Assembly (NCBI RefSeq): GCF_023101085.1
Contig: NZ_CP064703.1
Span: forward strand, 3,534,001-3,598,000
Source: Bradyrhizobium sp. 170
Lineage (GTDB): Bacteria > Pseudomonadota > Alphaproteobacteria > Rhizobiales > Xanthobacteraceae
DNA: 64,000 bases
Reading direction: 5' to 3'
Below the pieces are notes generated by a model. It had not been told where the DNA came from. It was given only the letters and a program-made list of their open reading frames with translations, and ran no database searches. Below are positions 42,167 to 62,261 of this stretch, in pieces. Made by a program: the position numbers and the translations under genes. Numbering within the stretch: the stretch's first letter is position 1; each line of letters begins with the position of its first letter.

Positions 42167-44083
42167 TTAAGCGGGACCGGATTTCCCAGACACTGTGAAT
42201 GTTTCGATGAGGTGCGGAGCGAGTGGCTTCGAAGGCACCCACCGCGGCTCGTCCGGATTGCCAATCTCATATTTTTGATTGTCGTTCCAGTCGTCGCGCT
42301 GCGGCACATTCTCCAGGCCGATTGCGTGAACCTGGACCTCGTCGCCTTCAATCCGCAAGCGTAGGAAATTGTTGTATCGGCCGATGCGCAGCGCGCTGAA
42401 GGCATCGTTGCGGTTCATGCGCAGCCAGCGGCACGTAAGAAGCATGTTGAGGCCGAAATAGGTACTTCCGAACAGGAAACCGACAGCCCCCATTTCGAGG
42501 AGGAGGAGGCTCACCCACGTCCAGACGCTGTACCATTCACCCGCAAGCGTGAAATGCTCGGCGTTGCAGGCTGTAAACCAGCGTGCCGCGAGGATCGCCG
42601 TGACGACGTGGGCGGTGATGTGGACAAGGCTTGTCCCGATGACGATCATGGCTTTCTGGAATTGAAGCCAGAGCTTCTCGGTCGCCAAGGCGTCGAACTC
42701 GTCAGGTCTGATTCGGCGGATTCGCCACGTTCGAAAGATCTCCCCGAGCGAAACCTTCTCCTGATCGGTCGTATAAGCGATGATTCCGCTGCCGATGATC
42801 AGGGCGACTGCGATGTACGCGTCTATCTCGTCCCGCAGGCCGATCAGAACGCCGACGGCGAAGTAGACCAGCCCCATTAGTATCGAGAAATCCCAGTTCT
42901 TGAAAGCAAACCAGATGTTCTGCCAAAGAAGGTCCTGGCTAACTCTGATAGAGGGATACACGGCGGGCTCGGTGGCGGTCGGCGCCTGTTTGGCCGTTGA
43001 GCCCTGCGCTGGCGGCACCTCAGGTTGCTTGATTGCTGTGGCTTGCTCGGTGTCCTGAACCTCCGTCGCTTTGTCGGCGAGGGTCAGCCTCACTTTTCGA
43101 CTGTTCCAGCGAACGCTGACATACTTTTCGAGTTGATGGGTCGGATGGAGGAATGCGCCACCGCCGCCTGAGGTCACGAATTGCGTGCCATCCACTGCTT
43201 GGTAGCGGCTGTAGTGGTGTGTATCGCCGGACAAAAGAAGCGGGATGGTCAACTGCTTGTCGGCTCTCTTGATGATGCGGAGGGCGTAATCGACGATTTC
43301 CCAGGAGTTGGTGTTGGTGTCGGTATAAAGCCAGCCGGGCTCCGCTGTGCAGAGAATGATACGCGAGCCGCGCAGCAGCTCGTTCGACCGCGCAATCATC
43401 TCGAAGTAGTCGGCCTGCGGCTGGTCCATGTCTTCGGCGAGTTGAATGTCCATCGCCCAAAGCCACCAGGTCTTTGTAAGCTGGATCGCAAAATAACTTC
43501 GCTTCTGATGGGTGCGCCAACCGCCGAAGTGGGTGGGGCGCGTCGGCGTGAAGTACGCGAGGAACTGCACCAGGCCATCATACCAGTCGTGGTTGCCCGG
43601 AATGGCAAACAACGGTACCCCGTTGGGGTCTTTCCGGTCGGGGTCTGGGAAGGCCCACCGATAAGGTTGGAACAGCTGGTTGCGGTAGGTCTGCGCGTTA
43701 GCCAGCGGATAGACTTCGTCGCCGCCCATGATGAGCATCTGACCGCGTGGTAGTTTCTTCCCCTCGACTTCACATTCCTTGCGGGCAAGCAGACATGCGA
43801 CCGCGAAGGTGCTGTCGAAACCATCGCCGAGGTCGGCCACGAAGTCGAACCATACGGGCCCGGTCCCTTCAGGACTAAATTCATCGACGAAGGCCGTCGC
43901 ACGTTCCAAATGCTTTTCAGGCGGGACTGTATCGAGCGCGGCGATCATGAGGCGACGGTCGGCGTACTGGCCAAACATTGCTGACGTGACCACGTTGTTC
44001 AACAGCTTGAGGAGTAAGATGGGATTGAACCAGCGGACCATCCCCGGATAGGTCCTGTAATCCTTCAAGTAGTCAGCGCCCAT
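42167..44083 (-). CDS. Membrane-anchored metallophosphoesterase
   Basis: A 638-residue protein. The N-terminal half is a calcineurin-like phosphoesterase: DLGDGFDSTF, MGGDEVYP, PGNHDWYDG and the late metal motif SGDTHHYSRY, spread over about residues 85-300. The first motif departs from the usual GDxH. A Gln/Thr/Ala-rich linker (335-360) leads to a C-terminal region with four or five membrane helices (for example ILMGLVYFAVGVLIGL, IAVALIIGSGIIAYTT, WVSLLLLEMGAVGFLFG). The last 70 residues are soluble. It may act on a nucleotide or phospholipid at the membrane. It lies within the repeat-bounded island next to a repressor/protease pair. Confidence 0.8.
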   Translation of the reverse strand: MGADYLKDYRTYPGMVRWFNPILLLKLLNNVVTSAMFGQYADRRLMIAALDTVPPEKHLERATAFVDEFSPEGTGPVWFDFVADLGDGFDSTFAVACLLARKECEVEGKKLPRGQMLIMGGDEVYPLANAQTYRNQLFQPYRWAFPDPDRKDPNGVPLFAIPGNHDWYDGLVQFLAYFTPTRPTHFGGWRTHQKRSYFAIQLTKTWWLWAMDIQLAEDMDQPQADYFEMIARSNELLRGSRIILCTAEPGWLYTDTNTNSWEIVDYALRIIKRADKQLTIPLLLSGDTHHYSRYQAVDGTQFVTSGGGGAFLHPTHQLEKYVSVRWNSRKVRLTLADKATEVQDTEQATAIKQPEVPPAQGSTAKQAPTATEPAVYPSIRVSQDLLWQNIWFAFKNWDFSILMGLVYFAVGVLIGLRDEIDAYIAVALIIGSGIIAYTTDQEKVSLGEIFRTWRIRRIRPDEFDALATEKLWLQFQKAMIVIGTSLVHITAHVVTAILAARWFTACNAEHFTLAGEWYSVWTWVSLLLLEMGAVGFLFGSTYFGLNMLLTCRWLRMNRNDAFSALRIGRYNNFLRLRIEGDEVQVHAIGLENVPQRDDWNDNQKYEIGNPDEPRWVPSKPLAPHLIETFTVSGKSGPA

Positions 44084-44405: not shown

Positions 44406-45272
44406 CTATCTTCGTTTTTTGCTGCGGCCCGGCCAAGGCAGAACGCCATCAAGCTCGCGCAGGCCCTGCGTTTCCTCTTCCCACCGCTTTCGCTCCGGTG
44501 GAGGCGGCGGAAGCTCTTCATCGCCAAACCAGAGAAGCGTCAGCGTCTGGTCCCAATGGCTCAAATGGATTGTGTCCTCGTAGAGCGATCCATCCCGCTC
44601 CCAATTCTCGAACCACTGCCCGGGTTCTGCTTCTTCAGGGCTCGACAACCTTTCCCCGGCGCGAACGCGTGCGCTGTAGGAGTCTACGGGTAGCGGCGAT
44701 CCCGGCTGGATCCAGGCCTTGGCCTCCCTGAACTGGGCCGATCGAGCGCTATAGCGGACCTTGCCCTCTTCGGAGAGAACAAAGGCGCATAATTCGCGAG
44801 AGAACGTAGCGAACCGTGAACCGGTGGAGATGAGCGACGCCTCGAATTCGTCGGCCAAGGCGTTGATTGACGCGAACCCCATCTCCGCCGTGTCAACGCG
44901 GGGCTTAAAGAGTTTGTAGGGAAGCAACAGCTCGGCCGCGAACACGTCGCAAGCAACCTCGCCCGGCGGCCGGCGGGAATAACTCCAACTCGGACCGGCA
45001 TGATCGGCGCCGATTCCCAGCGCCACATGAGCTACTTCATGGCAGACGCTGAATCTTTGGCGCCGCGAATTATGCGCGCAGTTCACGCAGATGTGGAACT
45101 TGCCATCGGTGTCGTAAAAGGACCAAGCATCCTCTTTCTCTTCGAGCTCCTTGATCTTGATGACGCCGTCGATCTCGGCCGCGTAACTCTCGACAGAGAC
45201 CGGAAGAGCCGACGGGCCGCAGCGGCCGACGAACTCCCGCGCCTTCAGTACGATCGTGAGTTCGTCCATCAT
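44406..45272 (-). CDS. ImmA/IrrE-family metallo-endopeptidase
   Basis: A 288-residue protein with the zinc-protease motif HExxH (His78-Glu79-Val-Ala-His82 in SVCHEVAHVALG). A downstream metal-ligand region is EVACDVFAAELLLPYKLF, as in the ImmA/IrrE family. The family cleaves partner XRE repressors when a stress or DNA-damage signal arrives, which frees their operators. The gene starts four bases after the stop of an XRE repressor gene, the typical arrangement. The C-terminal 120 residues (after about 170) are acidic and rich in Trp/Pro and could be a sensing region. Confidence 0.88.
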   Translation of the reverse strand: MMDELTIVLKAREFVGRCGPSALPVSVESYAAEIDGVIKIKELEEKEDAWSFYDTDGKFHICVNCAHNSRRQRFSVCHEVAHVALGIGADHAGPSWSYSRRPPGEVACDVFAAELLLPYKLFKPRVDTAEMGFASINALADEFEASLISTGSRFATFSRELCAFVLSEEGKVRYSARSAQFREAKAWIQPGSPLPVDSYSARVRAGERLSSPEEAEPGQWFENWERDGSLYEDTIHLSHWDQTLTLLWFGDEELPPPPPERKRWEEETQGLRELDGVLPWPGRSKKRR

Positions 45273-45276
45273 GGTC

Positions 45277-45648
45277 CTATCCCATAATCTGGCGGATGCG
45301 TTCGAGGGACGTCGCGTAGTTGGGCCGTGCGCCACGGTTCACGACGGTTGTGAGCATGCGAAATTGGTCGAAGGTCACGCTGGGGTCCGCGCGCACAAAT
45401 TCGATCAGCTTCACGTCAACATCTGCATGATCGGCCAGAAAGCGGAGGATATCCGCGTCCCGCCTCGGGGGCGTGAGGGCTATAATGAGCTTGTTAACGA
45501 CCTCCTCGGAGGGCGCCTCTTTAGCGCCGGTCTCCAAGCGATAAATGTAGGCGTGGTCGACCTCGCTGGCGTCGGCGACATCCCTCAAACTTAGGTCCCG
45601 GCGATCCCTTAGGCCCTTGAGCCAAACTCCTAGCGCCGTCTCCGGCAT
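45277..45648 (-). CDS. XRE-family transcriptional repressor
   Basis: A 123-residue protein. The HTH covers residues 8-60 (LGVWLKGLRDRRDLSLRDVADASEVDHAYIYRLETGAK read in parts). The C-terminal part carries a short helical region where ImmA-type proteases usually cut or where dimerisation occurs. The ATG at 45648 has a perfect AGGAGGTC ribosome site; the frame is open 42 codons further up but without one. It is transcribed away from the ubiquitin-like operon and probably represses both directions through the palindromes at 45685 and 45754. Confidence 0.88.
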   Translation of the reverse strand: MPETALGVWLKGLRDRRDLSLRDVADASEVDHAYIYRLETGAKEAPSEEVVNKLIIALTPPRRDADILRFLADHADVDVKLIEFVRADPSVTFDQFRMLTTVVNRGARPNYATSLERIRQIMG

Positions 45649-45684
45649 CCGACCTCCTTGACAAAGTTTGTCCGTTACCCCATA

Positions 45685-45704
45685 TGTTGTCTGTACAGAC
45701 AACA
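45685..45704. promoter_or_regulatory. Operator O1: perfect 20-bp palindrome
   Basis: TGTTGTCTGTACAGACAACA is a perfect 20-base palindrome in the divergent promoter. It directly follows or overlaps a possible rightward -10 region (CATATG/TATGTT near 45681-45688) paired with TTGACA at 45658-45663. It is the natural binding site for the XRE repressor encoded just to the left. Confidence 0.75.
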
Positions 45705-45753
45705 CGCCCTTTTTGGCCGCTAAGACCAGAGAGGGTGTTTTTTGAAGCCCGAC

Positions 45754-45773
45754 TGTTGTCTGGTCGGACACCA
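45754..45773. promoter_or_regulatory. Operator O2: imperfect copy of O1
   Basis: TGTTGTCTGGTCGGACACCA shares the left arm TGTTGTCTG and a degraded right arm with O1, 69 bases downstream and 56 bases before the first gene of the ubiquitin-like operon. Two related operators suggest cooperative or looped repression. Confidence 0.6.
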
Positions 45774-45828
45774 CTATGTCACCCGGTAGGGCCTAACGCA
45801 AGCGCCACTAAGGCGGGAAGGTGTTGAA

Positions 45829-46281
45829 ATGTCTGTCGATGTCGCCGCGCACCTGGTGCGCATCCATATCAACCGGGAGGCCTACAAGTCGCCGAATCCC
45901 ACCACGGGCGAGGCTCTCTACGAATTGGGCAAGGTGCCCAAACACGAGAAGCTCTACCGTGAGGTCAGCGACGATGAGGAAGACAAGCTGGTGCCGCGCG
46001 ACGATGCCCGCGTGTATCTGAAGGAGGACGAGCACTTCTACAGCCAGAAGGCGTTCTCGATCTTCGTCAACACGGACGAACATGACGTCGAGAAGAAGCA
46101 CATCTCGTACGCCCAGGTGGTCGAACTCTACCTCGGCGACGGCGGCAAGCCCTCCAATGAGTACCTGATCAAGTATTCGCACGGCCCCGCGGAGAACCCG
46201 AGCGGCACCTTGGCTCCAACCGAGAAGGTAAAAGTGAAAGATGGCATGCGCTTTAGGGTTGCCGGAACTGGCGAGTCATAA
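45829..46281 (+). CDS. Multi-ubiquitin-domain protein (two ubiquitin-like units)
   Basis: A 150-residue protein composed of two beta-grasp, ubiquitin-like units. Unit 1 (about 6-75) starts AHLVRIHINREAYKSPNPTT and ends DARVYLKEDEHFYS; unit 2 (about 76-150) starts FSIFVNTDEHDVEKKHISYA and ends KVKDGMRFRVAGTGES. This matches the family called multiubiquitin (Multi_ubiq), found next to E1-like ThiF genes in bacteria. Unlike eukaryotic ubiquitin there is no diglycine end; the C terminus is GTGES, so either Gly is used after trimming or the mechanism differs. It is the first gene of the operon and overlaps the E1 gene by 41 bases. Confidence 0.85.
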   Translation: MSVDVAAHLVRIHINREAYKSPNPTTGEALYELGKVPKHEKLYREVSDDEEDKLVPRDDARVYLKEDEHFYSQKAFSIFVNTDEHDVEKKHISYAQVVELYLGDGGKPSNEYLIKYSHGPAENPSGTLAPTEKVKVKDGMRFRVAGTGES

Positions 46282-47443
46282 CCCGTTCATCAAAGACCTC
46301 GACGAACTCGGTTACCATGTCGATTTCGTCGGCGGGTATCTCGTCATCTACGGCCTGCCGTACCTCGACCAGGACGCCGCGCTTCAGCACGGCGACTGGG
46401 CGTGTCCGGTCGATCTGCTTGACGCCGTCATCGACAAGCCGAAGCACCACCAAGCGTGGTGGCGAGGCAGCCGGCCGCATGACGGCGCCAAGCGCCAGCT
46501 GCGTCTTGGCGGCGGCCCGGACCGCGTGACGGTCGCGCCGGACCTCATTACCGATTGCTCGTTTTCATTCAAGCTGCTGAATGAAGACGGCGTCGCCCGC
46601 GACTACCTTTCGTTTGAGGAGAAGACGCAGACCTATCTCGACACGATAACCGGACCGGCCCTTGCCGCGTTCCCGGATGCCACGCCGCTGCGCGGCATCG
46701 CGGTCAAGGCGGCGGCGCAAGGCAGCCCCCTTCGTTTTCCCGACACCATGTCCGCGCGATACCACATCAACGACATCTCGGCTCTGCTGCGCGGTAAGAA
46801 AGCCGCCATCATCGGGCTCGGCGGCACCGGCGCCTACATCCTCGATTTCATCGCGCGAACTCATCTGGAGCGGATTGCGCTGTTCGACGACGATAAAGTG
46901 CATGTTCATACGATCTTTCGGGTGCCGGGCTTCATCCCCGGCGCCATCAAGGGGCTGAAGGTCGACGCCTTGGCGCGGCAATATGGTCATTGGCACGCCG
47001 GGATCGATCCGATACCCGAACGCATCACCTCGGAGAATATCGAGCGCCTAGCCGAATTTGATTTCGTCTTTGTCTCGGTCGATGACGGGCCGGCCCGCCT
47101 GCTCATCGTCGATTGGCTGAGCGCAAAAGGCATACCCTATGTCGATTGCGGCATGGGCCTCAATCGATCTACGGTCGGCCTCAGCGGCTTCGTTCGCATC
47201 ACTGGCACCGATCGCAAGGCATTCGAAACCAATGTCCACTCAGCTTATTTGCCAACTGAGAATGCCAAGGATGACGAATACCGCAAACAGCCTCAGATCA
47301 CCGAGCTCAACGCCTTCAACGCTATAATGGCCGTCATCAGGTTCAAGCAGCATTTTCTGCTTCTTGATCGCCTGGACGATGCTACGAGCTACGTCTTCGA
47401 TACCGCATTGCTTGAGATCGATTCGAAAGGACGGTCGGAGTGA
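46241..47443 (+). CDS. E1-like ThiF-family adenylyltransferase with N-terminal extra domain
   Basis: A 400-residue protein. Residues 1-165 form a domain of the type found before ThiF in multi-ubiquitin operons (HNPFIKDLDELGYHVDFVGG, LVIYGLPYLD, FEEKTQTYLDTITGPAL); its layout suggests an E2-like or adaptor fold, but no clear catalytic Cys motif is seen. The ThiF/E1 Rossmann domain (180-390) has AAIIGLGGTGAYILDFIA, the acidic IALFDDDKVHVHTIFR strand and VDCGMGLNRSTVG with a candidate catalytic Cys. It should adenylate the C terminus of the ubiquitin-like protein. The ATG at 46241 lies inside the upstream gene; the next gene starts at its stop (GTGA). Confidence 0.85.
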   Translation: MACALGLPELASHNPFIKDLDELGYHVDFVGGYLVIYGLPYLDQDAALQHGDWACPVDLLDAVIDKPKHHQAWWRGSRPHDGAKRQLRLGGGPDRVTVAPDLITDCSFSFKLLNEDGVARDYLSFEEKTQTYLDTITGPALAAFPDATPLRGIAVKAAAQGSPLRFPDTMSARYHINDISALLRGKKAAIIGLGGTGAYILDFIARTHLERIALFDDDKVHVHTIFRVPGFIPGAIKGLKVDALARQYGHWHAGIDPIPERITSENIERLAEFDFVFVSVDDGPARLLIVDWLSAKGIPYVDCGMGLNRSTVGLSGFVRITGTDRKAFETNVHSAYLPTENAKDDEYRKQPQITELNAFNAIMAVIRFKQHFLLLDRLDDATSYVFDTALLEIDSKGRSE

Positions 47444-47847
47444 CCTTCACCTATCAGGCTGTCGAGCGCATACCCAAGCAGCTCAGTGAAGGCGTCGTGT
47501 ATCACAGCCCGGAGTTCGAGGTTGCCGCTCTCCTGTGCGCATGCGGGTGCGGACACCGGGTCATGTTGCTCGTGCCAGACAGTCATCATGTCTCGTCTGA
47601 ACGCGGCATGGCCACCGTCAAACCGTCGATCGCCGTCTGCGATGCGCCATGCAAGGCGCATTATTTTATCACCGCTGGCGAGGTGCAATGGTTGCCGGCT
47701 TTCTCTGCCGCCATGGCATCATCAGTCATGCGCAATCAGATTGCTCGCCACGCGACCGTTGACGCGAAACGCCGGCCGTGGACCACCCGCTTGTGGGCGG
47801 CCATCGCACGAGCATTCAACAAACTCAGAGAGTTGCCCGGCGTATGA
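47440..47847 (+). CDS. DUF6527-type cysteine-rich protein of the ubiquitin-like operon
   Basis: A 135-residue protein with a compact Cys/His pattern: LLCACGCGHRVMLLVP near residue 30 and PSIAVCDAPCKAHYFITAGEVQW near residue 65. This resembles the small DUF6527 family, which is recurrently encoded with multi-ubiquitin and ThiF genes and probably binds zinc. It might serve as an adaptor or ligase-like partner; that is inference. The GTG start overlaps the E1 stop by four bases, so translation is coupled. The C-terminal 35 residues are basic and helical. Confidence 0.75.
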   Translation: MTFTYQAVERIPKQLSEGVVYHSPEFEVAALLCACGCGHRVMLLVPDSHHVSSERGMATVKPSIAVCDAPCKAHYFITAGEVQWLPAFSAAMASSVMRNQIARHATVDAKRRPWTTRLWAAIARAFNKLRELPGV

Positions 47848-47960
47848 ATGCCGAGCGGATCCCGCACCGCAACCCGGGCCACGCATCTATGGTGGCCGCA
47901 ACGTAGGATTTTTCCTAGATTACCCCTCGCGCGCCGATAGAATGGCCCGGGGGATCAACC

Positions 47961-49784
47961 ATGATCGAACAGCTGGTGATTAACTGGTCCGCGCAATTCT
48001 TTTTGCGCTCGAAACCTCTCAACGACGCCGCCATCGAGAGCTTATTTGACGCGCTTCCCGCCACCGTAAAGAACGCGGGAAAGCCTTTATTCCGAGTTGT
48101 ACGCAAGGTCCATAAGGGCAAGAAGTACTCGGCTATTTGCTTTCCCTATGACCGCCAAACCGTGTTCCTTGCCGAAGAAGCCGGCATATCCGACCGCGTT
48201 CATGGCTTCATGCTCGTCGTCGAACATGGCGACGTTGTTGCCATCCACAAATCCGCATTGGAAGTTCCGGCACTGTTCAAGGGCGAGTGGTTAGGCCGAA
48301 TAAAAGCCGGCAACGTAGAACGGGCCGTTGCAACGGCCGGCGCCAAATTTGAATCCATGCGATTGCGTCTGATGACAACCTCACGGCAAGCGCTGCGCAG
48401 CAAGACCCTGGAAGCCGATGATCTGGAAAATGCGATGCCGATGGCAAGCGCTAGCCGCTATATCAGCCAGCGATACCGTGTTCGACGTGGAAGCACACGG
48501 CTGACGGCGACGCCTAACACCGGCCGCATCGCGCAGAACTCAGACCGAGCCGGCTACAAAGCCGCGGTCGATTGGTCGATTGAAGTCATGACTGAGCTTG
48601 CACGTGATGCCGGCGACGTTGCACCTTTCATCGCAAACTTTGCGCGTCTGGTAGACCTGGCGTCGCTACCAACCGCTACCAATCCAACAAATCTGGCAAT
48701 CGATGTGGCGGAGATAAGGGATCGACTATTGTCGGAGCCACCGCTCATCAAGCTGTTCGACAAGGAGCGGTCGGGAAAATTCCGCGAACTGACGGTCCGG
48801 GAAGCCAACGAGATTTTGGAGGCGCTTGATCAGGAGTTCGTGGTCGAGGGAGCGCGCGACGCCCTTCGGATCCTTGACGGCCCGGGCGCGGCCGAGCTTG
48901 GTTCGCTAAGATGGGGCAAAACTCGCATCGGCCTATCGACCCTTGCCCTGCCCAAAACCGATGGGATTTACGTCGCGCCTGCCGATCAGGGGGCCGACGG
49001 CGATCAGCAAACAGCGCTGAAGATGTATCTCGACCGCGAGAATCTTTTCCTTATCCTCTTTGACGACATCAATATCGCCTATGTGAACGGCGAGCTTTTC
49101 CAAGACAACGTGATGCGCGATGGTGGCGCACTGTTTCTTGGCCATCTCCTTCCCGAGGATAGCTTGAAGAAGGTTTCAAGCGAGAAGGGACGCTTTCGCG
49201 CGAACCAAACGAAGTTCGCCGCGGGTTCGGTCTTCGGTCAAGTGCAAAGCACGATCGCTGCCGCAGACGATATATTGATCTGCGACGACCTCGGCGACGA
49301 ATGGGCCGATTTTATCGGCATGAATACCAAGGGCGCTCCACCCACGATAACGTTCTATCACGCAAAGCACGGCAAACTATCGTTAGGCGCTGGCGCCTTC
49401 CATATCAGTGTGAGCCAAGCTGAAAAGAATCTCGGCCGTCTCGCTCTTCCCAAAGCTGCGATCGACACCAAATTCGACAGCTGGGAGAAAGAGCCTTACA
49501 AGAATAGTAACAAAGTAACTGCTATCGCGCGTGTTATACGCGGCGGCCCGAGATCAGATATTGAAAAGCATCTCGTGAGGCTGCGCAATTCACCAGAAGT
49601 GTTCAAGCGCGTCTCAATTGTTACGTCGTCGTTAAGCAAGAAAGTTGTCGAAAACGCATTCGCCGATATCAAGAGCGGCAAGCGTCCGACTGCGCACTTT
49701 GTTCAGCTCTATTGGTTGCTGACGTCTTTCTTCTCGGCCTGCGCAGAAGTTGGGGCTGCCGGTTATGTCATTTGCCAGCCATAA
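47961..49784 (+). CDS. 607-aa protein of unknown function, end of the ubiquitin-like operon
   Basis: A soluble 607-residue protein that I do not recognise. The N-terminal half is mixed alpha/beta (MIEQLVINWSAQFFLRSKPL, YSAICFPYDRQTVFLAEEAG). The C-terminal part has a conserved-looking block, DDILICDDLGDEWADFIGM followed about 12 residues later by TITFYHAKHG and then GAFHISVSQAEKNLGRL. The D-E-D plus hydrophobic-x-x-H-A-K spacing could be a variant PD-(D/E)xK nuclease core. The C terminus (SFFSACAEVGAAGYVICQP) is hydrophobic. It lies 113 bases after the Cys-rich gene on the same strand and could be the effector. The start has GGGGGATC upstream. Confidence 0.6.
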   Translation: MIEQLVINWSAQFFLRSKPLNDAAIESLFDALPATVKNAGKPLFRVVRKVHKGKKYSAICFPYDRQTVFLAEEAGISDRVHGFMLVVEHGDVVAIHKSALEVPALFKGEWLGRIKAGNVERAVATAGAKFESMRLRLMTTSRQALRSKTLEADDLENAMPMASASRYISQRYRVRRGSTRLTATPNTGRIAQNSDRAGYKAAVDWSIEVMTELARDAGDVAPFIANFARLVDLASLPTATNPTNLAIDVAEIRDRLLSEPPLIKLFDKERSGKFRELTVREANEILEALDQEFVVEGARDALRILDGPGAAELGSLRWGKTRIGLSTLALPKTDGIYVAPADQGADGDQQTALKMYLDRENLFLILFDDINIAYVNGELFQDNVMRDGGALFLGHLLPEDSLKKVSSEKGRFRANQTKFAAGSVFGQVQSTIAAADDILICDDLGDEWADFIGMNTKGAPPTITFYHAKHGKLSLGAGAFHISVSQAEKNLGRLALPKAAIDTKFDSWEKEPYKNSNKVTAIARVIRGGPRSDIEKHLVRLRNSPEVFKRVSIVTSSLSKKVVENAFADIKSGKRPTAHFVQLYWLLTSFFSACAEVGAAGYVICQP

Positions 49785-50041
49785 ATCACTAGCTAAAAGG
49801 AGATGCTTGCCATCCGATGCCTCCAGTCTCCGGGTTGCCAACTGATAAGCAAATTACACAACGCTTATCAGTCAGTCGGCGTGTTCCATAAATGTTCGAT
49901 ATCTGAATGTCTCCCTATCCTTGTGGCAGAGACCGACTGCGAGTTCACTCCGCTAGGCGACCCATTCCCGAATTCTTGCAGGACGAGGAGGGGGTTCTGG
50001 TGTGATAATCTGAAATCGTCGATCTACCGATTCCCTGGGTA
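49785..50041. other. Intergenic region before the right direct repeat
   Basis: About 260 bases without a supported gene, AT-richer than the core, leading into the direct repeat at 50042. Nothing further was recognised. Confidence 0.4.
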
Positions 50042-50188
50042 GTGCGGCAGGACTCGAACCTTCAACCAGACCGTTATGAGCGGCAGGATATCGATCAGCT
50101 TCGTTGATTTTGCTGCGGTTTCGTCTGTATCCGATCGCGTTCGTTGTGACTCGGCAAGGTCGTTTCTGGTGCGAAACTGGTGCGGTTG
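50042..50188. repeat. Right direct repeat of the 8.6-kb island (tRNA-like end)
   Basis: Copy of the 41404-41549 repeat with about 88 percent identity by eye. On the minus strand it ends CTGCCGCTCATAACGG, then GGTTCGAGTCCTGCCGCAC, a tRNA 3'-half shape with CAT anticodon and T-arm but no proper CCA end and no 5' half. It marks the other end of the segment that carries the phosphoesterase, the repressor/protease pair and the ubiquitin-like operon. Confidence 0.75.
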
Positions 50189-50519
50189 GTCTGCAGCCGA
50201 AATTTAGAGCGCCTATAGCGACCTGAACCCTGTCGTAGTTTTGCTGATGCCGCTCGACGGTCAAGCCGAGCTATCCAACAGCTTCGCACAAGTCGGCGCC
50301 TTCCTGCATTTGCCAAGTAGCCGCGGTATGGCGGAGTGAGTGCCGTACCGCGTCCTCACCGAGGCCCGCATCCAATTTGGAAGTCCCACTCAGAGAGTCT
50401 CACACTTGGGCCTGGTGCCCCGAATTCAAAAGCTCCCGATGATCAGGGGGGCTTTGTACGTCATCGTCCGTTCCGGCACGCTGCGCTGGTTCCGCAAAAT
50501 GAGTGTCGCCTGATCGTCT
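50189..50519. other. Intergenic region right of the island
   Basis: About 330 bases between the direct repeat and the stop of the large helicase gene. No gene, RNA or repeat is supported. Confidence 0.4.
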
Positions 50520-53500
50520 TCATGCCGATGCGGTACCTGAGGCTGATATGATGGCCGCTTCGAAGCGCTGGCGTGTGGAGATCGCAAGTCGTCCCAGTCC
50601 GAAGTGCTCCTGCATGCCGCGGATCAGATCTTCATTCTCCTCAAGGCCCTCTGCACGAAGGACATCGGCAAGGCCTGCTAATTCGGGCAACGGCACGTCA
50701 CCGTGCTCGCGGCCGCTACCGCCACGGTAGGGCGACTTGGTTCCGGGCGCTGCGTTTTGAGGCCAGACGATCTCCCGATCGCCGTCCCGGGTTGTGGGGA
50801 AACGGCCTTGCCCAAGCGCTGCCCGGATGATCCGTTGCACCGTTTCGCCCGAACGTTGGAAGCCGTGGGCGCGCGCGATGCGGTCGATTAAAACGTCGAA
50901 ATAGATCGGTCCTTCGATTTCGACTACATGGTCAATCATGTTGCGGACATTGCCGCGGTAGGCAACGTCGTAGAAGCGCTCTCGGTCGGGGGCCGCGACG
51001 GTGCTGGGGTCAGCCCTCGTGTAGGTGCTCGGCATCGCGGCAGGGTCCGCTGCAGCCGACGTCGGTCCGCGCGCGTAGATCCTTGGCTCCTCGTCAGGCT
51101 CGCTGTCGTTTGCGGGAGCAGGGGGAAGCGGCTGCGAGTGTTGCGAATCGTGCTCGATGGGAGGAGCCGAGTTCGCCTCCTCGTCAGAAAGTACGACCGT
51201 TTTCGACCCATCTTGAGCGCTGACCGAGATCTCCTCCATGGCCGACAGTGCACCAGTGTCGATGGCCTCTTCCGGGGAGGTGGCCGATGGTCGCGATGCG
51301 CGGTCCGTTTCGAGATCGGCTGTCAGGCGCGTATGGATCTTTTCCGCAGCCGACGAGCCGTCCATCCACCACTCGGTGCTCCAGATGCGCCGGATGCGCC
51401 AGCCGAGGTCGGTCAAAACCATCTCGCGCAGGCGGTCGCGATCGCGCGCAGTAGCCGAGCGGTGATAAGTGGCACCGTCGCACTCGACGCCGGCGAGATA
51501 GCGGCCAGGAAAATCCGGATGCACGACGCCGAGGTCGATCCGGAAGAACGAAACGCCTACCTGTGGATGAACTTCCCACCCGCGTTTTTGCAGCGCGTCC
51601 ATTACTGCATCCTCAAAAGGCGATTCCGTTCCGCGACCGGTCGGCGAGAAAGCCTCGGCGATGGCGCGCGCGCCGTGCTCGGCGAATTCCAGGAAGTGCT
51701 TGAAGTCCACCACCCCCTTGGCACTGGTGCGCCCGAGGTCGATCTGCTCGGGACGGAGTGTCGCGAACACCAATAGCTCGCTGCGCGCACGGGTGATCGC
51801 AACATTGAGCCGGCGGTGACCGCCCTCGCCGTTGAGCGAGGAGATCTGCGCCGTAATGCGGCCTGTCTTATCGGGGCCGACGGCCACCGAAAAGATGATG
51901 ACGTCGCGCTCGTCGCCCTGAACGTTCTCGATGTTCTTGACGAGAATTGGCTCGCGCGTCTGGTGTTTGTCGAAATGGGGCTCCAGTGCGGGATCGCTTC
52001 GTCGCGCCTGGTCGAGCATGTTCTCGATCAGGCGCTGCTGGTCGCCGTTGAAGGTGACGACGCCGATCGATTTGGTCGATGTCTTCAGGCGTCGGACAAC
52101 CTCGGCGACGACCGCTTCGGCTTCCTTGCGGTTTACCTTGGCGCCGCCGCGTTCGTAGATGCCGCCCTCGACGTGGACATAGCGAACCGCGGTGTCACGG
52201 GTCACCGGCGACGGGAAGGTCATCAGTTCGCCGCGGTAATATTTCGCGTTCGAAAACGCAATCAGGCTCTCATGGCGGCTGCGGTAGTGCCACGACAGTC
52301 GCATGCTCGGGATGTTAGAGGCGAGACATTCGTCGAGGATGCTTTGCTGGCTCTGCACCGTCGAACCGTCATCTTCTTCGTCGTCGACGCCGCGCTGCCC
52401 GACGCTAGTCGGCGGAAGCTGTTCCGGATCGCCTACGACGATCACTTGGCTGCCGCGAGCGATGGCCCCGATGGCGTCCCAGACGGGGATTTGCGAAGCC
52501 TCGTCGAAGATAACGACGTCAAACGGTTTGGCCTCAGCCGGCAGGTATTGCGCGATCGACAGCGGGCTCATCATGATACAGGGCGCAAGCTGCGTCATCA
52601 CGTTCGGGATCCGCCCAAAGAGCTGGCGAAGCGGCATGTGCCGAGCTTTCTTGTTGATCTCCCGAGCCAGCGTTCCCCATTCCGGATCCTTGCCGAAACT
52701 GGTCTGTGTCGGCACGGAGGCACCGATCCGCGCCTTGACGATCTGCCTGGCGAGTTCACAGACCTTCTTGTCGGCGGCGACAAAAGCCTCGATCACGGCC
52801 TCGTGCCTCTCTGCAAGGAACCCGCTCAGCACATCGTCCTCGTTCACGATGGTTTCTGCAACCCAACGCGCATAGGCGTAGTCGAACGCACCGGCGAGCT
52901 CGTCGCGCGCAAAGCGGCCATCTTCAACGGCATCCACGAGCGGTGAAAGTCCGGCAGCTCGGGCCGTTTTCGCAGCCGCCCGCCATGTGGCCCATTGCGG
53001 AGCCTTGATGATGTTGGCCTTCCACCGGGCCGTCCGTTCCTGCAACCCGTTGATCCAGCCGGGCTCCAGTTGGATGATCTCTTCAGGGTGATCGAGGCCT
53101 ACGCACGTGCCAACATCCTTCGCCGCCTGATGCATAGCTGGGAAAGCCTGGTGCATGGTGTCAAACGCCCTGCGTACCTGGCCGCCTGCACGGAAGCGCG
53201 AGATGTCCTGCGTGAGGAGGGCGGTGACGTGGGCGGTGATCCGTTCTGGTGGCACGTCGTCGATCTGGAAGGCGTCAACCGCACTTTGCAGGTCCTGGGC
53301 CCATTTGATCAGGGCCTGGATGCGCGCCGGGTCGCTCTCCAGCCCGCGCCACAATCGTTCGATACCGCGGAAATGTGGCCTGAGGGCTTCCAGCCCGCGA
53401 AGCAGATCGCAAAGGTCTTGCAAAACGATGAGGTCGCGTCCGATGTCGTCGGGCACATCGTCCGAGCAGTAGGGCTGCAGATGAAGTCGTACCTTCTTCT

Positions 53501-56500
53501 TGCGGCCACTGCGTACCAGCACGTTGGACGCGCAGGCTTCGGTCCATTCCCGCTGCAGGGTCGACAGGTCGAGCCGCGCCGCTTTGAGATCATAATCGGC
53601 TGCCAGTTCGGAGGCCTTGTCGCGGATGCGCCCGATCGCGCCAGCCAAGGCGGTCAGCACGCGAATATGCTGCGGAGCCTCCTCGGTGAGTAGCAGCACG
53701 CCATCTGCAGCGTTCGGGTTCAGCATCAGCGCGACGAGCTTGATGAGCTGCGGCAACACGCTGTCATCTGCGACCTCGTTCAGTCCGAGGGAGGTGACGA
53801 GAGCGTCCGCCGCCTCTTTCATTTGCTGCAGCGACGCCTGCAGGCGATCGACCGCCAGCTGCAAAGATTGCGCCCATGCTGGAGTCCAGTGGGTTTGCTC
53901 TATACCCTGCAAGGGATGGACGGACGGGTCGCCGACCGCTTCCAGCGCGGTGCGTATGTCCATGCAGCTCTCGCGCATCCTGGCGAGCTGCTCCGGCGAA
54001 TGCACCGTTCCGGCCGGCCATGTAAGTTCGATGTCGGCGAGGCGGTCACGATCCGCGACCACACGTCCGAAAGCTTCGTAGGCCGTCATGCCGTTCGCGC
54101 GCCTTCGGTGCAGCGCCGAGACCAGCCTGTTCAACTGGTCGCGCTTCTTCTTCAGGTCATCGGCGGCCGTCGACCAATGCTCTTCAGTGACGAGATTGCG
54201 CTCACGCCAGGCGGTCGCGAGTTGCTCCAGCACACTCGACTTCTGAGCCTTGGTCGAGTGTACCTCGAGACAGTAGTTGCCGAGCCCGATGGCCTGCATC
54301 CGCTGCCTGACGACTTCGAGCGCCGCGGTCTTCTGCGAGACGAACAGCACCGTCTTCTGGTGTGCAAGGCAGTTGGTGATGGCGTTGGCGATAGTCTGAC
54401 TCTTGCCGGTGCCGGGCGGTCCGAACAGTACATAGTCCGCGCCGCGCTGGGCGGCGACGACGGCAGCGATCTGCGAGGAGTCGGCCGAGAGCGGCGCGAA
54501 CAGTTCGACCGGGTCGACGATCTCGTCGATAGTTCGCGCATCGATGAAGCCCGCCCCGGACCCATCGTAGCTGTGGGTCGGGGTATCGATCAGGTGGCGC
54601 ACGACGGGATTGCGCTTGAGCAAATCTGTGCGGTCGACGAGATCCTTCCACATCAGGTACTTGGTGAAGGACAGCGTCGCGAGCGTGACCTGCTCAGTGA
54701 CTTCCCAGCCCTTAATGCTCTTGATGTGGCGGCGGACGGTCTTCCAGATCCCGGCGACGTGGATGTCGGAGGCGTCCTGCGGAAGTTCGCCGTCGAATTC
54801 CGGCATCGACAGATCGAAATCCTGCTTCAGCATCTGCAAAAGCGTGGGATTGAAACGTGCTTCATCCTCGTGAAGTGCAAGACGGAAGCCGGAGCGGACG
54901 CTCTTGCGTTCGAGCTGTACGGGTACGAGGATCAGCGGCGCCCGGTAGGGTCCGGCACCGTCCTGAGGCGTCCATTTCAGAAAGCCGAGACATAGATAGA
55001 GGATGTTTGCGCCGCCTTCTTCGAAAGCGAGCCGCGAAGCCCGATAGAGATCGGTGAGACGGCCCTCCAATTCGGTGTCGGCGATGTGCGTGTGCAGGTC
55101 GCCCCGTTTCATCGCGTCGAGAATGAAATCCTTGCGCGCGTCCTCGTTCTGCCGGTCGGCGAGCAGTGTCGTGTCGCGTCCGTCGCTGCCGTCGAGCACG
55201 GTGGTCTTGCCGAGCAGCTTGAAGCGGTCGCCATCGGAGAGTCTGTCCTCGAGCATCGCGCAATCGGGGCACTCGATTGCGATGGTCGATTTCGAATCCT
55301 TGAAATTGAGCAATCGGTTCTTCAGCGAGAGGTCGAGAAGGTTGCGCTTCCAGATCTCGAGCCTGTCGAGATTCTTCTCGGTTGTCGGCTCGCGACGCTT
55401 GTCGAGATCCTCTTCGAAATGTGGGACTTCACCGGCTTCCTGCGCGATGGTCGCAGTGTCGGTGACGGGCCGGATTGCCGGTTCGGCCGAGCTCGACAGG
55501 TCCAGAGGACGGATTTTAGCACTTCGCGCACGGCGCACGTCGATGGCGAGTTCGAACGGCGAGGCGGCGTCTTCGGCAATCAGTTTCTTGGCCGCTTCGA
55601 CCGCCTGCTTGAAGCGCGCCGGGTGTGCACCCGTCAGCAGGGTCGTCTCGACCACAACCATTTCTTCCAGCTGCACGCGCTTGCGCAATATCTGGGGGTC
55701 GTCGACGACGAGCCCGGAGAAATCCTCATCCACCAGCCAGATGCCGACAAACGCATGGCCGTCGGTGAGCGCAACAACCGGGTTGAGGCCCGCTTGTTCG
55801 AGGCAGGACGCGTACAGCAGCGTGAGATCGAGGCAGGTGCCGACCTTGCGTGAAAGGATATCGCTGGGGCCGCGGACCATCTGGCCCGAACGCTCGAAGC
55901 TCTTGGGCGGCAATACGTAGGCGATCGAATGCGACACCAGCGCCGCCCAGATTGCGTCGGCGATCTCCCAGGCGCGGGCCTTGGTGCCCTTGCGGTAGCC
56001 GTCCATGGCCTCGTCGCGACCGACGGCGGCCAGCTTGTCGGAGGCTTCGCGCAGGACGACGTCGACGCTGGGATCGGTCGGCCTGACGAAGGCCGCCAGC
56101 AGTTCCGGCGCCGAGCTGACGCCACCCCAGTGCGAGGGCGGGAGCAGATTGATTTCGACGGCTTCCTCGGCGAGCACGGTCCCCGCCGCTTCGACCCGGA
56201 TGCGGAGTTCGCCGCGCCGTGAGGCGTTGATGCCGGCGAGAAAGGCAGGATCAAGCTTCAGATCGAGACTGCGGATATGGTGGACGGCTTGGTCCGCGAT
56301 GCGTTCGATCCGCCAGACCCCGGGCGTGAGAAACGGCGGTTCTGAGGTGAGATGGACCGAGATTCCAGTTAGGTCGCTGCCTAGCGCGTTTTCGACCGCG
56401 AGGTCCCGGATGATCGGCACCGCATTTTGGTAGAAGGCGACGTTGACGTTATCGGCCGTGGTACAGGCAATTCTTACGGTTCCGCTCACCGCGTTCTCTG

Positions 56501-56519
56501 ATTGGATCCGCTCCAGCAT
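50520..56519 (-). CDS. Giant DUF4011 / SF1 helicase / Vsr-like nuclease / DUF3320 protein
   Basis: A 1999-residue multidomain protein. In order: a beta-rich N terminus (1-150); a transglutaminase-like domain (190-300) with Cys near 227 in GTCLDLTLLYASCL and His in DGHAFVGIW; DUF4011 (about 385-640, WKRNLLDLSLKNRLLNF); an SF1/Upf1-like helicase with Walker A GPPGTGKSQTIANA (near 700), Walker B VVIFDEASQIPVWDA and GDPEQLPPT (near 1335), SWHYRSRHESLI, and RRLNVAITRARSELL; a Vsr/DUF559-like endonuclease (near 1640-1730, FRIDLGVVHPD, GVECDGATYH, LTDLGWRIRRIWSTEWW); and a C-terminal DUF3320 (about 1835-1990). This architecture is frequent in bacterial defence islands. It is cytosolic and needs ATP; the target nucleic acid is unknown. 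Confidence 0.9.
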   Translation of the reverse strand: MLERIQSENAVSGTVRIACTTADNVNVAFYQNAVPIIRDLAVENALGSDLTGISVHLTSEPPFLTPGVWRIERIADQAVHHIRSLDLKLDPAFLAGINASRRGELRIRVEAAGTVLAEEAVEINLLPPSHWGGVSSAPELLAAFVRPTDPSVDVVLREASDKLAAVGRDEAMDGYRKGTKARAWEIADAIWAALVSHSIAYVLPPKSFERSGQMVRGPSDILSRKVGTCLDLTLLYASCLEQAGLNPVVALTDGHAFVGIWLVDEDFSGLVVDDPQILRKRVQLEEMVVVETTLLTGAHPARFKQAVEAAKKLIAEDAASPFELAIDVRRARSAKIRPLDLSSSAEPAIRPVTDTATIAQEAGEVPHFEEDLDKRREPTTEKNLDRLEIWKRNLLDLSLKNRLLNFKDSKSTIAIECPDCAMLEDRLSDGDRFKLLGKTTVLDGSDGRDTTLLADRQNEDARKDFILDAMKRGDLHTHIADTELEGRLTDLYRASRLAFEEGGANILYLCLGFLKWTPQDGAGPYRAPLILVPVQLERKSVRSGFRLALHEDEARFNPTLLQMLKQDFDLSMPEFDGELPQDASDIHVAGIWKTVRRHIKSIKGWEVTEQVTLATLSFTKYLMWKDLVDRTDLLKRNPVVRHLIDTPTHSYDGSGAGFIDARTIDEIVDPVELFAPLSADSSQIAAVVAAQRGADYVLFGPPGTGKSQTIANAITNCLAHQKTVLFVSQKTAALEVVRQRMQAIGLGNYCLEVHSTKAQKSSVLEQLATAWRERNLVTEEHWSTAADDLKKKRDQLNRLVSALHRRRANGMTAYEAFGRVVADRDRLADIELTWPAGTVHSPEQLARMRESCMDIRTALEAVGDPSVHPLQGIEQTHWTPAWAQSLQLAVDRLQASLQQMKEAADALVTSLGLNEVADDSVLPQLIKLVALMLNPNAADGVLLLTEEAPQHIRVLTALAGAIGRIRDKASELAADYDLKAARLDLSTLQREWTEACASNVLVRSGRKKKVRLHLQPYCSDDVPDDIGRDLIVLQDLCDLLRGLEALRPHFRGIERLWRGLESDPARIQALIKWAQDLQSAVDAFQIDDVPPERITAHVTALLTQDISRFRAGGQVRRAFDTMHQAFPAMHQAAKDVGTCVGLDHPEEIIQLEPGWINGLQERTARWKANIIKAPQWATWRAAAKTARAAGLSPLVDAVEDGRFARDELAGAFDYAYARWVAETIVNEDDVLSGFLAERHEAVIEAFVAADKKVCELARQIVKARIGASVPTQTSFGKDPEWGTLAREINKKARHMPLRQLFGRIPNVMTQLAPCIMMSPLSIAQYLPAEAKPFDVVIFDEASQIPVWDAIGAIARGSQVIVVGDPEQLPPTSVGQRGVDDEEDDGSTVQSQQSILDECLASNIPSMRLSWHYRSRHESLIAFSNAKYYRGELMTFPSPVTRDTAVRYVHVEGGIYERGGAKVNRKEAEAVVAEVVRRLKTSTKSIGVVTFNGDQQRLIENMLDQARRSDPALEPHFDKHQTREPILVKNIENVQGDERDVIIFSVAVGPDKTGRITAQISSLNGEGGHRRLNVAITRARSELLVFATLRPEQIDLGRTSAKGVVDFKHFLEFAEHGARAIAEAFSPTGRGTESPFEDAVMDALQKRGWEVHPQVGVSFFRIDLGVVHPDFPGRYLAGVECDGATYHRSATARDRDRLREMVLTDLGWRIRRIWSTEWWMDGSSAAEKIHTRLTADLETDRASRPSATSPEEAIDTGALSAMEEISVSAQDGSKTVVLSDEEANSAPPIEHDSQHSQPLPPAPANDSEPDEEPRIYARGPTSAAADPAAMPSTYTRADPSTVAAPDRERFYDVAYRGNVRNMIDHVVEIEGPIYFDVLIDRIARAHGFQRSGETVQRIIRAALGQGRFPTTRDGDREIVWPQNAAPGTKSPYRGGSGREHGDVPLPELAGLADVLRAEGLEENEDLIRGMQEHFGLGRLAISTRQRFEAAIISASGTASA

Positions 56520-57233: not shown

Positions 57234-58466
57234 ATGGTTCGCATCTTACATACGGGCGATTGGCACATCGGGCAAACCATGCGCGGATTCTCGCGCGAAT
57301 ACGAACATCGGAGGGTGTTTGAGCGTATCCGCGAGATATTGATCGAGCGCGAGGTGGATGCCTTGATTGTGGCTGGGGATGTATTCGACAGTCAGAACCC
57401 ATCCGGCGAATCTCAGCAGCTATTTTACGACACGCTAGTTCGCTTTAGTCGCGCTCGACCGCAAATGACAACGATCATAGTTGCCGGAAATCATGATGCC
57501 GCAGGGCGACTTGAGGCTCCTCGTCCTCTCCTTGAGGCGTTCAATATCCGTGTCGTCGGTAACGTACACCGTCGTGACGGGCGTATCGACAGCTTACGTC
57601 ATCTGGTGCCCATTACAGACGCAACAGGGTCTATCGCGCTCCACGTCATTGCGGTCTCCTATCCCACCGCTGCCTGTTTGCCTAACCTGACACGGCTCGA
57701 CAGTGATGGGGGATCACCGGTGATAGCGGGTGTGCGCTCTCTCTATGCTGAACTCCATGAGACGCTAGGCTATCAGATCAATGGACTGCCTTTCGTCCTA
57801 ACCGGCCATCTGCATGTCGCAGGCGGCATCGAATCTGAAGGTGCCGAGCGACGGATTTTGATTGGCGGACAACATGCGGTTCCCCATGACGTTTTCCCCT
57901 CGGAGGCGTCTTATGTTGCGCTGGGTCATCTCCACCGGCCCCAGACGGTCGGTCGACATGTGGTCCGCTATTCGGGTTCGCTTATTCCGCTGTCTGCCAC
58001 GGAGCAATCGTACAATCACGGGGTGACATTGGCGACCGTGGACGGCGCCTCAGTCACGACCGAGCACATTTCCATTATCCATCCGGTGCCGTATCTTCGT
58101 CTACCGAAAGCCGGCCAATTGCAATTGTCGGAACTTGGTGATCACCTGACGGCGCTCGATCTTCCGCCGGATGCGCTAATCGACAATCAGCCCTTTATTC
58201 AACTGCATCTGATGCGCGAAGGGTTGCCCCCCGGATTTCGAGAAGAGATCGACCGCATCGCCGAGGGCTTTCCCGTTCGCATTGTCGATGTGCGCGTCGC
58301 TGCTCTGCCAAATAATATACCCAGCATCGCTATAAGCGATCCATTCGTCCGGCTATCGGAGCGTGATCCAGAGGAGCTCTTTAAGCTCGCTTTTGAACGT
58401 CAATTTGGGGCTGCACCCGATGCAGCCCATCTAGATGTGTTTCACCGCGTGCGGGCAGAGGCCTGA
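57234..58466 (+). CDS. sbcD: Exonuclease SbcCD subunit D (Mre11-like)
   Basis: A 410-residue Mre11-family nuclease. Phosphoesterase motifs are LHTGDWHIGQ, VAGDVFDSQNPS, VAGNHDAAGR, LTGHLHVAGG and GHLHRPQ, covering the two-metal site. The C-terminal capping domain follows (about 290-410). With SbcC it cleaves hairpins and processes DNA ends. The ATG at 57234 begins directly before the first motif (VRILHTGDWH). It is followed by sbcC after three bases. The base composition is lower in GC than the core genes, which suggests an acquired copy. Confidence 0.93.
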   Translation: MVRILHTGDWHIGQTMRGFSREYEHRRVFERIREILIEREVDALIVAGDVFDSQNPSGESQQLFYDTLVRFSRARPQMTTIIVAGNHDAAGRLEAPRPLLEAFNIRVVGNVHRRDGRIDSLRHLVPITDATGSIALHVIAVSYPTAACLPNLTRLDSDGGSPVIAGVRSLYAELHETLGYQINGLPFVLTGHLHVAGGIESEGAERRILIGGQHAVPHDVFPSEASYVALGHLHRPQTVGRHVVRYSGSLIPLSATEQSYNHGVTLATVDGASVTTEHISIIHPVPYLRLPKAGQLQLSELGDHLTALDLPPDALIDNQPFIQLHLMREGLPPGFREEIDRIAEGFPVRIVDVRVAALPNNIPSIAISDPFVRLSERDPEELFKLAFERQFGAAPDAAHLDVFHRVRAEA

Positions 58467-58469
58467 GCC

Positions 58470-61400: not shown

Positions 61401-62261
61401 GAACAACTCCTTGCCGGGGACCCGGTAGAGAAGGCCGCGCTCAAGAAGCGAATTGAGGCAATCAACCGCGCCATCCTTGACGCGGACGTCGCTATTGTCA
61501 CGCGGCAACAAGATTTGACTGACGCTCTGGAGGGATTTGATGAAGCAATTGATGTCAATGCCATCTCTGCCAACGTGAGTGCATTGGTTGAGGAGATTGC
61601 GGAGAAAAATCGGACAACCGGCGGGTTGATCGCTACGTTGTCCCGCGACGACGATGCGCGCCGGATTGCGGAGACGCTGGCGGCGGAGACCGAGTCTGCG
61701 ACGACCGACTTGGCAATCTGGCAGGCGGTCAACGAAGCTATCGGCTCCGCGCGAGGTGATCGCTTTAGGCGATTCGTGCAGGGCATCACGCTCGATCACT
61801 TGGTTCAACTTGCAAACGATCAACTGGCGGTATTCAGTCCGCGATATCGGCTCGCGCGGGGGGTGACCTCCGATCTGGCGCTACATGTTGTCGACCGCGA
61901 CATGGGTGATGAGATTCGCGCTACCCGGAGCTTGTCTGGAGGTGAACGATTCCTGGTCTCATTGTCTTTAGCCCTGGCATTGTCCGGCCTTGAGGGGAGA
62001 ACGTCCTTTGTAGATACGCTGTTCATCGACGAGGGTTTTGGATCTCTCGACGCTGAAACGTTAGACATTGCTGTAGACGCCCTTGAAACGTTACAAGGAC
62101 GAGGTCAGAAGGTCGGTGTTATCACGCATGTTGCTGCCATGATCGATCGAATCGCCGTGCAGGTCCGCGTCGAAAAGCGCGGAGGGGGCCGCTCGGAGGT
62201 CCGTATTGCCACCGCGCTGCCATCAACTTGGTCCAGCAGCAATGAACGCGCCGTGGGATAG
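58470..62261 (+). CDS. sbcC: Exonuclease SbcCD subunit C (Rad50-like ATPase)
   Basis: A 1263-residue Rad50/SMC-type ATPase. The N-terminal half-domain has Walker A GDTGAGKSTILDALCLALYG and the Q-loop region LAQGEFDAFLLA. Two long coiled-coil arms rich in Ala/Glu/Arg flank a zinc hook, Cys613-Pro-Val-Cys616 (SACPVCGSTEHPH). The C-terminal half has the ABC signature SLSGGERFLVSLSLALAL, Walker B DTLFIDEGFGSLDAET and the H-loop GVITHVAAM. With SbcD it forms the Mre11-Rad50-like complex acting on DNA ends. All nucleotide-binding motifs are intact. The length is a little above that of E. coli SbcC (1048 residues). Confidence 0.94.
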   Translation: MRILAIRGANLASLATPFEIDLAAEPLAGSGLFAITGDTGAGKSTILDALCLALYGEYPRVSVVRRENVPDASGEEISVSDSRAILRRGASSGYAEVDFVGQDRQAYRIRWEAKRARGRAIGRLQAEERTLHRLDDGSAVATGKTQVRDAVQLKTDLTFDQFRRTVLLAQGEFDAFLLAAESDRAELLEKITGTEIYAVISMRVHEGTEFRARQVADLDRRRADVGVLADENRAQLLAELSRLTDLIAEKTSERDRYTKQLEHAKRVDITRANLGNARAAAVKAAGDRESADADFRRVTELDAIEPLRAPSIEYARAKRLAEESRARAAQLLDLSGAAKIIDDAADVRFVEAAANDEAAESAVARFGGVWSEAEKLDAEVAAAQTELADAGRIQVQAEAVLRGQECGLAELENSFASATVAHHDATEQLASHARGQLLADRLDDATSLLEKRALLAQDRITAATLAAEAQTTIAPLAEEITALSEQLAAGRKERDSLAERLGDQQARLALIDEDALSDRDGYFGQLLEALSEATSLCERYADAVSGVARGEADHVAAAQQIAAAQEQIQAAEIDRVRDSAARVEVAPLADLADETVSKEAVHLRSVLIPGSACPVCGSTEHPHLGHPSAVNELVEAVRRRRKELDTALELIGLRLRHATRALAAAQGRQSEAVRVVGQAHDELAAIEELFATQIARLRALAKVACISAVLPAAPDNSGASTLSALALLTRRQRVAVTAVLTEARSLRATTNALQREYDAIGVKLESIGQGLDQRRRQLHTTELTLKGQSVRRRELDERLSSIDREITPFLVAANLALDDIDRDPHGTAVRLAAAAAAYSVLRRTLQELDHQLRKLDPDLAAAGVSVGHAKIALAEAGARADQRRIIASEKKTARAALLDGEDTATHRNRFQASRQTARDELATASAAKADAAKNYGAARTRHEEADAASELAQQQMLACQTAFRAACIQAGRSIDDVEQLLAGDPVEKAALKKRIEAINRAILDADVAIVTRQQDLTDALEGFDEAIDVNAISANVSALVEEIAEKNRTTGGLIATLSRDDDARRIAETLAAETESATTDLAIWQAVNEAIGSARGDRFRRFVQGITLDHLVQLANDQLAVFSPRYRLARGVTSDLALHVVDRDMGDEIRATRSLSGGERFLVSLSLALALSGLEGRTSFVDTLFIDEGFGSLDAETLDIAVDALETLQGRGQKVGVITHVAAMIDRIAVQVRVEKRGGGRSEVRIATALPSTWSSSNERAVG

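Follow-up and report, generated by a model that had tools for sequence, protein, structure and literature searches.

Bil and CBASS type II have in common a ubiquitin-like (Ubl) conjugation logic of Ubl, E1 and E2. For the Bub pathway, Ye et al. 2026 are said to have described oxyester-linked E1/E2 intermediates. In the available sections of Iyer 2006 (PMC1779556), class 6e comprises a polyUbl, an inactive E2/RWD, a JAB-E1 and a metal-binding protein Y; a "domain X" replaces JAB in some versions, and these sections assign no function to X. Here, we analyze an operon of three genes, encoding a Ubl, an E1 with an N-terminal DUF6791 domain and a DUF6527 protein, in a window of 64,000 nucleotides from Bradyrhizobium sp. 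170 (NZ_CP064703.1, positions 3,534,001 to 3,598,000), which is part of one 9.195-Mb contig. The operon is genuine, well conserved and of a known kind: we group its class with the Bub pathways and, presumably, with class 6e of Iyer. We regard it as likely that the trio is a JAB-less Bub/polyUbl conjugation operon that is induced by damage, with DUF6791 as fused E2, a Ser-ended Ubl and reversal by DUF6527. Its features are the following.

45829-46281, + strand: Ubl gene (150 aa; two beta-grasp units; C-terminus ...GTGES).
46241-47443, + strand: gene of the DUF6791-ThiF E1 (400 aa).
46241-46768, + strand: N-terminal DUF6791 domain of the E1 (E2/UBC fold in the model; invariant His70, Ser109, Lys128 and Tyr132).
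46769-47443, + strand: ThiF/E1 adenylation domain (GLGGTG, Asp216, Arg227; no conserved cysteine; ThiF 7.5e-15).
47440-47847, + strand: DUF6527 gene (135 aa, GTG start; Pfam DUF6527 3e-15).

All three genes lie on one strand, the Ubl and E1 genes overlapping by 41 nt and the E1 and DUF6527 genes by 4 nt. An earlier annotation made from the letters alone (the sequence-only reading) had placed four open reading frames here, the first three overlapping, as is borne out by their positions. It had also described the Ubl protein as two ubiquitin-like units with a GTGES tail instead of a diglycine, the E1 as carrying an additional N-terminal domain and the Cys-rich third protein as DUF6527-like, and each of these assignments holds. 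Pfam Multi_ubiq (9.2e-14, residues 76-147) covers the second beta-grasp unit only. The first is supported by a profile built from 24 relatives, whose match to PDB 9cd2 (1.6e-35) extends across both units; the same profile also matches BilA (8u38) at 1.5e-10. In the E1, Pfam identifies DUF6791 (2.3e-21, residues 17-169) ahead of ThiF (7.5e-15, residues 183-362). Eight proteins between 42 and 56.5 kb were scanned and include no separate E2, JAB or CD-NTase, which sets the operon apart from Bil (BilA-D) and from CBASS type II with Cap2/Cap3; the sequence-only reading had rightly kept it distinct from both and noted that a separate E2 or JAB gene is missing. PADLOC E1-E2 models match weakly, and only in the ThiF part of the E1.

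The three genes travel together. An E1 search, whose counts include the window's own genome, placed the protein in 4/289 genomes of the class, 34/341 of the family and 37/265 of the genus, and in none of a phage collection. We fetched 54 E1 loci (3/3 from the class, 31/33 from the family and another 20 from the genus, with 11 genus places left out). Within 6 kb of the E1 and on the same strand, DUF6527 is encoded at all 54 and the Ubl at 51; the three without a Ubl comprise two loci at contig ends (L101, L109) and one whose E1 is truncated (L166). The DUF6527 gene comes immediately after the E1 in 33 of 34 drawn gene orders, the exception (L108) being a gene dropped by the simple gene picker. 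DUF6791 was further confirmed by Pfam on plasmids of Bacteroidota, Bacillota and Cyanobacteria. Ubl, DUF6791-ThiF E1 and DUF6527 are thus a conserved three-gene set, and this branch is widespread.

Comparison with Bub operons shows what the branch shares and what it lacks. Citrobacter freundii plasmid pOZ181 (L182) carries a close relative of PDB BubCD, and Pfam resolves its operon into Ubl and Prok-E2_E in one protein, Prok-JAB and ThiF in the next and DUF6527 after these. This Citrobacter type (PDB 9ea4/9eae) and the window operon both have a multi-unit Ubl, a ThiF E1 extended at its N-terminus by a further domain and DUF6527 in last position, and the two DUF6527 proteins match by BLASTP at 9e-9. 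They differ in that Citrobacter carries Prok-E2_E on the Ubl and JAB on the E1, whereas the scanned window proteins contain no Prok-E2_E (BubB) and Pfam detects no JAB, the BubC feature, on the window E1, where DUF6791, the E2-fold candidate, occupies the place of JAB. The N-terminal domain of PDB BubCD had been considered as an E2, wrongly, as its close Citrobacter relative shows JAB by Pfam.

For a broader comparison, ten plasmid loci chosen from the listed matches (L189-L198) were joined with L182 into an E2/JAB-type set; both domains were confirmed by Pfam in the two loci scanned (L189, L190), and L192 has no annotated DUF6527, unlike the other ten. Hidden Markov models (HMMs) built from these loci found Prok-E2_E in 0/54 and JAB in 0/54 E1 relatives. 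The JAB HMM, built from 10 loci, detects L197, which was kept out of its building, at 48 bits; positives in 11/11 E2/JAB-type loci are no independent control, the E2_E HMM having been built from those 11 and the JAB HMM from 10. The window operon is presumably the domain-X version of class 6e as outlined in the available part of PMC1779556, whose gene content (polyUbl, an E1 carrying a distinct domain in place of JAB, metal-binding protein Y) it fits; X would then be DUF6791 and Y DUF6527.

The Ubl C-terminus separates the two types as well. It is Ser in 51/51 loci of E1 relatives where a Ubl was detected and in plasmid-borne Ubls (L183-L185, L187, L188), whereas the five separately annotated E2/JAB-type Ubls end in TEG (L189, L193, L195), ALG (L190) or GNH (L197), and three of the six Ubl-E2 fusions have TEG at the junction (L194, L196, L198). 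The homologous multi-ubiquitin protein ZDHYS365 (PDB 9cd2) ends in TDKS but is a 222-aa chain compared with 150 aa in the window, and its best plasmid relative (H81/L187, 41.5% identity) adjoins a DUF6791-E1. This terminus bears on a sulfur-carrier pathway of the ThiS-ThiF kind, to which the ThiF-family adenylating domain would be suited and to which NCBIfam ThiF/MoeB models point with matches far below their cut-offs. With Ser in place of Gly-Gly, a multi-unit Ubl, an E2-fold domain fused to the E1 and a DUF6527 protein in common with the Citrobacter Bub operon, we consider such a pathway scarcely credible. A single chain of 519 aa (P0209) joins Ubl and DUF6791-E1, either as a natural fusion or as a deletion product.

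The sequence-only reading had suggested comparing the E1 N-terminal domain with E2 folds. DUF6791 indeed models as an E2/UBC fold, that of the Bub E2 BubB, with a best VIA-align Z of 8.6; VIA-align does no more than re-rank Foldseek's list, and according to its own note models that lack a clear match typically reach a top Z of 7 to 8. In this model-based comparison, the fold argument lies in the gap to the next VIA-align row and in the succession of E2 rows. JAB rows are absent among the VIA-align rows, which is a weak test. Residue conservation in the E1 and DUF6527 was counted over 60 alignment rows. His70, Ser109, Lys128 and Tyr132 of DUF6791 are invariant in the 58/58 rows that cover them, and no cysteine column is invariant among the 60 E1 rows, the best reaching 43/60. 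Alternatively, DUF6791 may be E2/RWD-like but inactive, serving only to bind or position the Ubl while the E1 transfers it straight to targets. The lack of a conserved cysteine in the E1 rows agrees with this, the fold match is silent on activity, and the available text of Iyer 2006 (PMC1779556) judged the class 6e E2 inactive for want of Cys. Four residues invariant in every covering row are nevertheless unusual for a mere binding domain, and Bub-type Prok-E2_E proteins keep W-S-R-H in 10/11 rows; we thus regard an inactive domain as unlikely.

DUF6527 offers a counterpart. Cys33, Cys35, Cys37, Cys71, Ser63 and His74 are each present in 60/60 rows, and Ser63 and His74 also occur, by eye, in eight printed E2/JAB-type DUF6527 proteins (L182, L189, L190, L193-L197), of which that of L195 has lost most cysteines. 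A DUF6527 profile has no relative among PDB sequences up to E 1. Judged from the residue pattern, cysteines 33/35/37/71 likely bind zinc, and the whole would fit a Ser-His protease on a zinc scaffold, which we propose to be a Ubl protease.

A conjugation pathway can be sketched from these elements. CapH bound to palindromes would repress the operon, until DNA damage or phage-borne single-stranded DNA (ssDNA) leads CapP to cut CapH, allowing expression. The Ubl, as its sequence shows, would be made already mature with a free C-terminal Ser, so that JAB processing would be unnecessary. Its C-terminus would be adenylated by the ThiF domain, as fold and conserved residues suggest, and then be taken in cis by DUF6791 as E2, most likely as an oxyester on invariant Ser109, the favoured nucleophile because no cysteine is conserved. 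DUF6791 would hand the Ubl to a target, from which DUF6527 may remove or recycle it via a Ser63-His74 dyad. We infer that conjugation probably proceeds via serine oxyesters and that it may serve phage defence. More tentatively, and with somewhat less than even confidence, we propose that DUF6791 acts as an E2 that depends on serine and is fused to the E1, that Ubl and E2-E1 suffice without a conserved catalytic cysteine or JAB maturation, and that DUF6527 is the serine protease that matches them. Such a cysteine-free cascade would hinge on Ser109 and His70, on the C-terminal Ser of the Ubl and on DUF6527 Ser63/His74. If true, it would be unusually compact, in a two-protein format; the E2 reading gives a testable identity to a domain family otherwise called "X" or DUF6791 and suggests how the branch manages without JAB and Prok-E2_E.

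Several observations weigh against the proposed conjugation pathway. Foldseek alone returns no DUF6791 match below E 0.001, the first E2 being Atg10 at rank 11 (E 0.71), and the VIA-align Z barely exceeds the range of models without a clear match. When the profiles of DUF6791 and Prok-E2_E are compared with each other, the match lacks significance (prob 0.4), and a sequence-level proof that the two are the same was dropped upon this failure. The E1 profile matches the ThiF part of Citrobacter BubCD at 1.3e-9, equal to TcdA; as both ThiF domains score alike, the E1 alone does not place the system in Bub. Many of the 54 E1 loci belong to closely related species, several to near-identical ones, and do not count as independent cases. 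Iyer 2006 (PMC1779556, available part) called the class 6e E2 inactive or RWD-like, and the accessible text of PMC13373217 states that Bub protection against phage is not demonstrated. The serine chemistry leans on the oxyester-linked intermediates that Ye et al. 2026 reportedly described. A literature search found no mention of DUF6791, DUF6527, PRK06153, PDC-S71, PF20590 or PF20137, with Gong 2025, Ye 2026 and Chambers 2024, which may already assign DUF6791, outside its reach.

Upstream of the operon, two divergent genes (44406-45648) and a palindrome in the spacer before the Ubl gene, all missed by the sequence-only reading, point at a regulatory switch.

45277-45648, - strand: CapH-like helix-turn-helix (HTH) repressor gene (123 aa; PADLOC capH 8.6e-11).
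44406-45335, - strand: CapP-like ImmA/IrrE metallopeptidase gene (PADLOC capP 5.3e-52; HEVAH motif at residue 99).
45685-45704, no strand: perfect 20-bp palindrome, a putative CapH operator.
45754-45773, no strand: second, imperfect copy of the putative operator (81% identical as a direct copy, 80% complementary).

The CapH-like start was reassigned, by reading the sequence, to the ATG at 45648, behind an AAGGAGG Shine-Dalgarno sequence. With an HTH protein and an ImmA/IrrE peptidase that carries HExxH, both encoded divergently from the operon, the pair has the composition and layout of a CapH-CapP regulator. The palindrome occurs just once in 9.2 Mb when up to 3 mismatches are allowed. Among 15 relative loci scanned, its GTTGTC-N6-GACAAC form recurs in four (L106, L107, L163, L165) and was not seen in the other 11. 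A CapP-like peptidase stands alone in 27 of the 54 E1 loci (including L097, which resembles a split fusion), is fused in a chain of >1000 aa in 15 and is absent from 12; a CapH-like gene is present in 29. Elsewhere CapH-CapP is reported as a DNA-damage switch with ssDNA-triggered CapH cleavage (PMC13373217, in the available text), and by analogy the three-gene operon is probably switched by its DNA-damage-sensing CapH-CapP-like pair. A toxin-antitoxin pair that merely stabilizes the cassette on mobile DNA, as the accessible part of PMC4963859 proposes for Synechocystis pSYSX, with 70% of PF14452 genes adjoining COG2856/DUF955 genes, is quite improbable here, considering that the genes diverge around a palindrome found only once genome-wide and that CapH-CapP is reported as a damage switch elsewhere. 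All four of the long CapP-type chains scanned (e.g. L093:4132-7587) contain peptidase, UvrD helicase and PD-(D/E)XK nuclease domains. A promoter and terminator scan of 45600-50500 revealed nothing exceeding chance.

Downstream of DUF6527, after a gap of 113 nt, lies a fourth gene.

47961-49784, + strand: gene of a 607-aa protein (PDC-S71 by PADLOC).

The sequence-only reading had called this protein unrecognised, which is correct for Pfam, where nothing matches, and overlooks PADLOC PDC-S71, matching residues 2-607 over model positions 4-589 of 589 at 2.4e-114. A profile finds no relative among PDB sequences up to E 1. Fold comparison, with middling scores, pointed to an RdgC-like N-terminal and a nuclease-like (FokI, HamA) C-terminal part. 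A four-gene system with this protein as effector, the earlier expectation, could draw on the nuclease-like half and on a possible shared transcript. Of that expectation, the strong co-occurrence of Ubl, E1 and DUF6527 stands and the fourth member does not: the 607-aa family lies within 6 kb of the E1 at 0/54 loci, the trio adjoins PDC-S71 genes at 0/54 PDC-S71 loci, and of 265 genus genomes 37 carry the E1 and 13 the 607-aa family, with 2 carrying both, about chance. We consider a four-gene system very improbable, and the fourth component was ruled out on these neighbourhood and co-occurrence counts; the 607-aa gene is a separate, independent neighbour, an unrelated defence candidate. Six of the 54 PDC-S71 loci (L004, L006, L007, L013, L041, L042) carry CapP-like genes elsewhere in the fetched stretch, two of them also CapH-like genes, and in L105 a CapP-like gene lies 4-5 kb from the PDC-S71 gene. 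At a Pseudomonas locus (L026:3395-5109), genes of a DUF6527 protein and of an E1 that matches weakly lie on the opposite strand, about 3.7 kb away from a PDC-S71 gene.

Further genes flank the cassette; a tRNA search of the window found none.

50520-56519, - strand: 1999-aa DUF4011 helicase-nuclease (NCBIfam antiphage ProA, 2101 bits; also PADLOC PDC-S37).
57234-62261, + strand: SbcD-like phosphoesterase and 1263-aa SbcC/SMC-like ATPase, with third-position GC below most of the window.
62343-63770, - strand: gene whose best matches span just the second half of PADLOC PDC-S06 models; its 5' end seems shortened.
42167-44083, - strand: 638-aa metallophosphoesterase containing hydrophobic stretches; it shares the strand of the CapP-like gene and lies 322 nt downstream of it.

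ProA was found within 6 kb of the E1 at 0/54 loci. Collectively, CapH-CapP-like control and the ProA, PDC-S71, SbcCD-like and PDC-S06-like neighbours suggest DNA-damage-linked immunity. Among related operons, one of the E2/JAB type has a phosphotransferase gene between its E1 and DUF6527 genes (L197:3744-5348), and a ClpP-like gene directly follows another in Rhizobium (L190:5852-6400). After the trio, a caspase-family gene lies two genes on in Leptolyngbya (L188:7759-9489) and a DarT-like gene about 2 kb on in Cytobacillus (L185:8473-9066).

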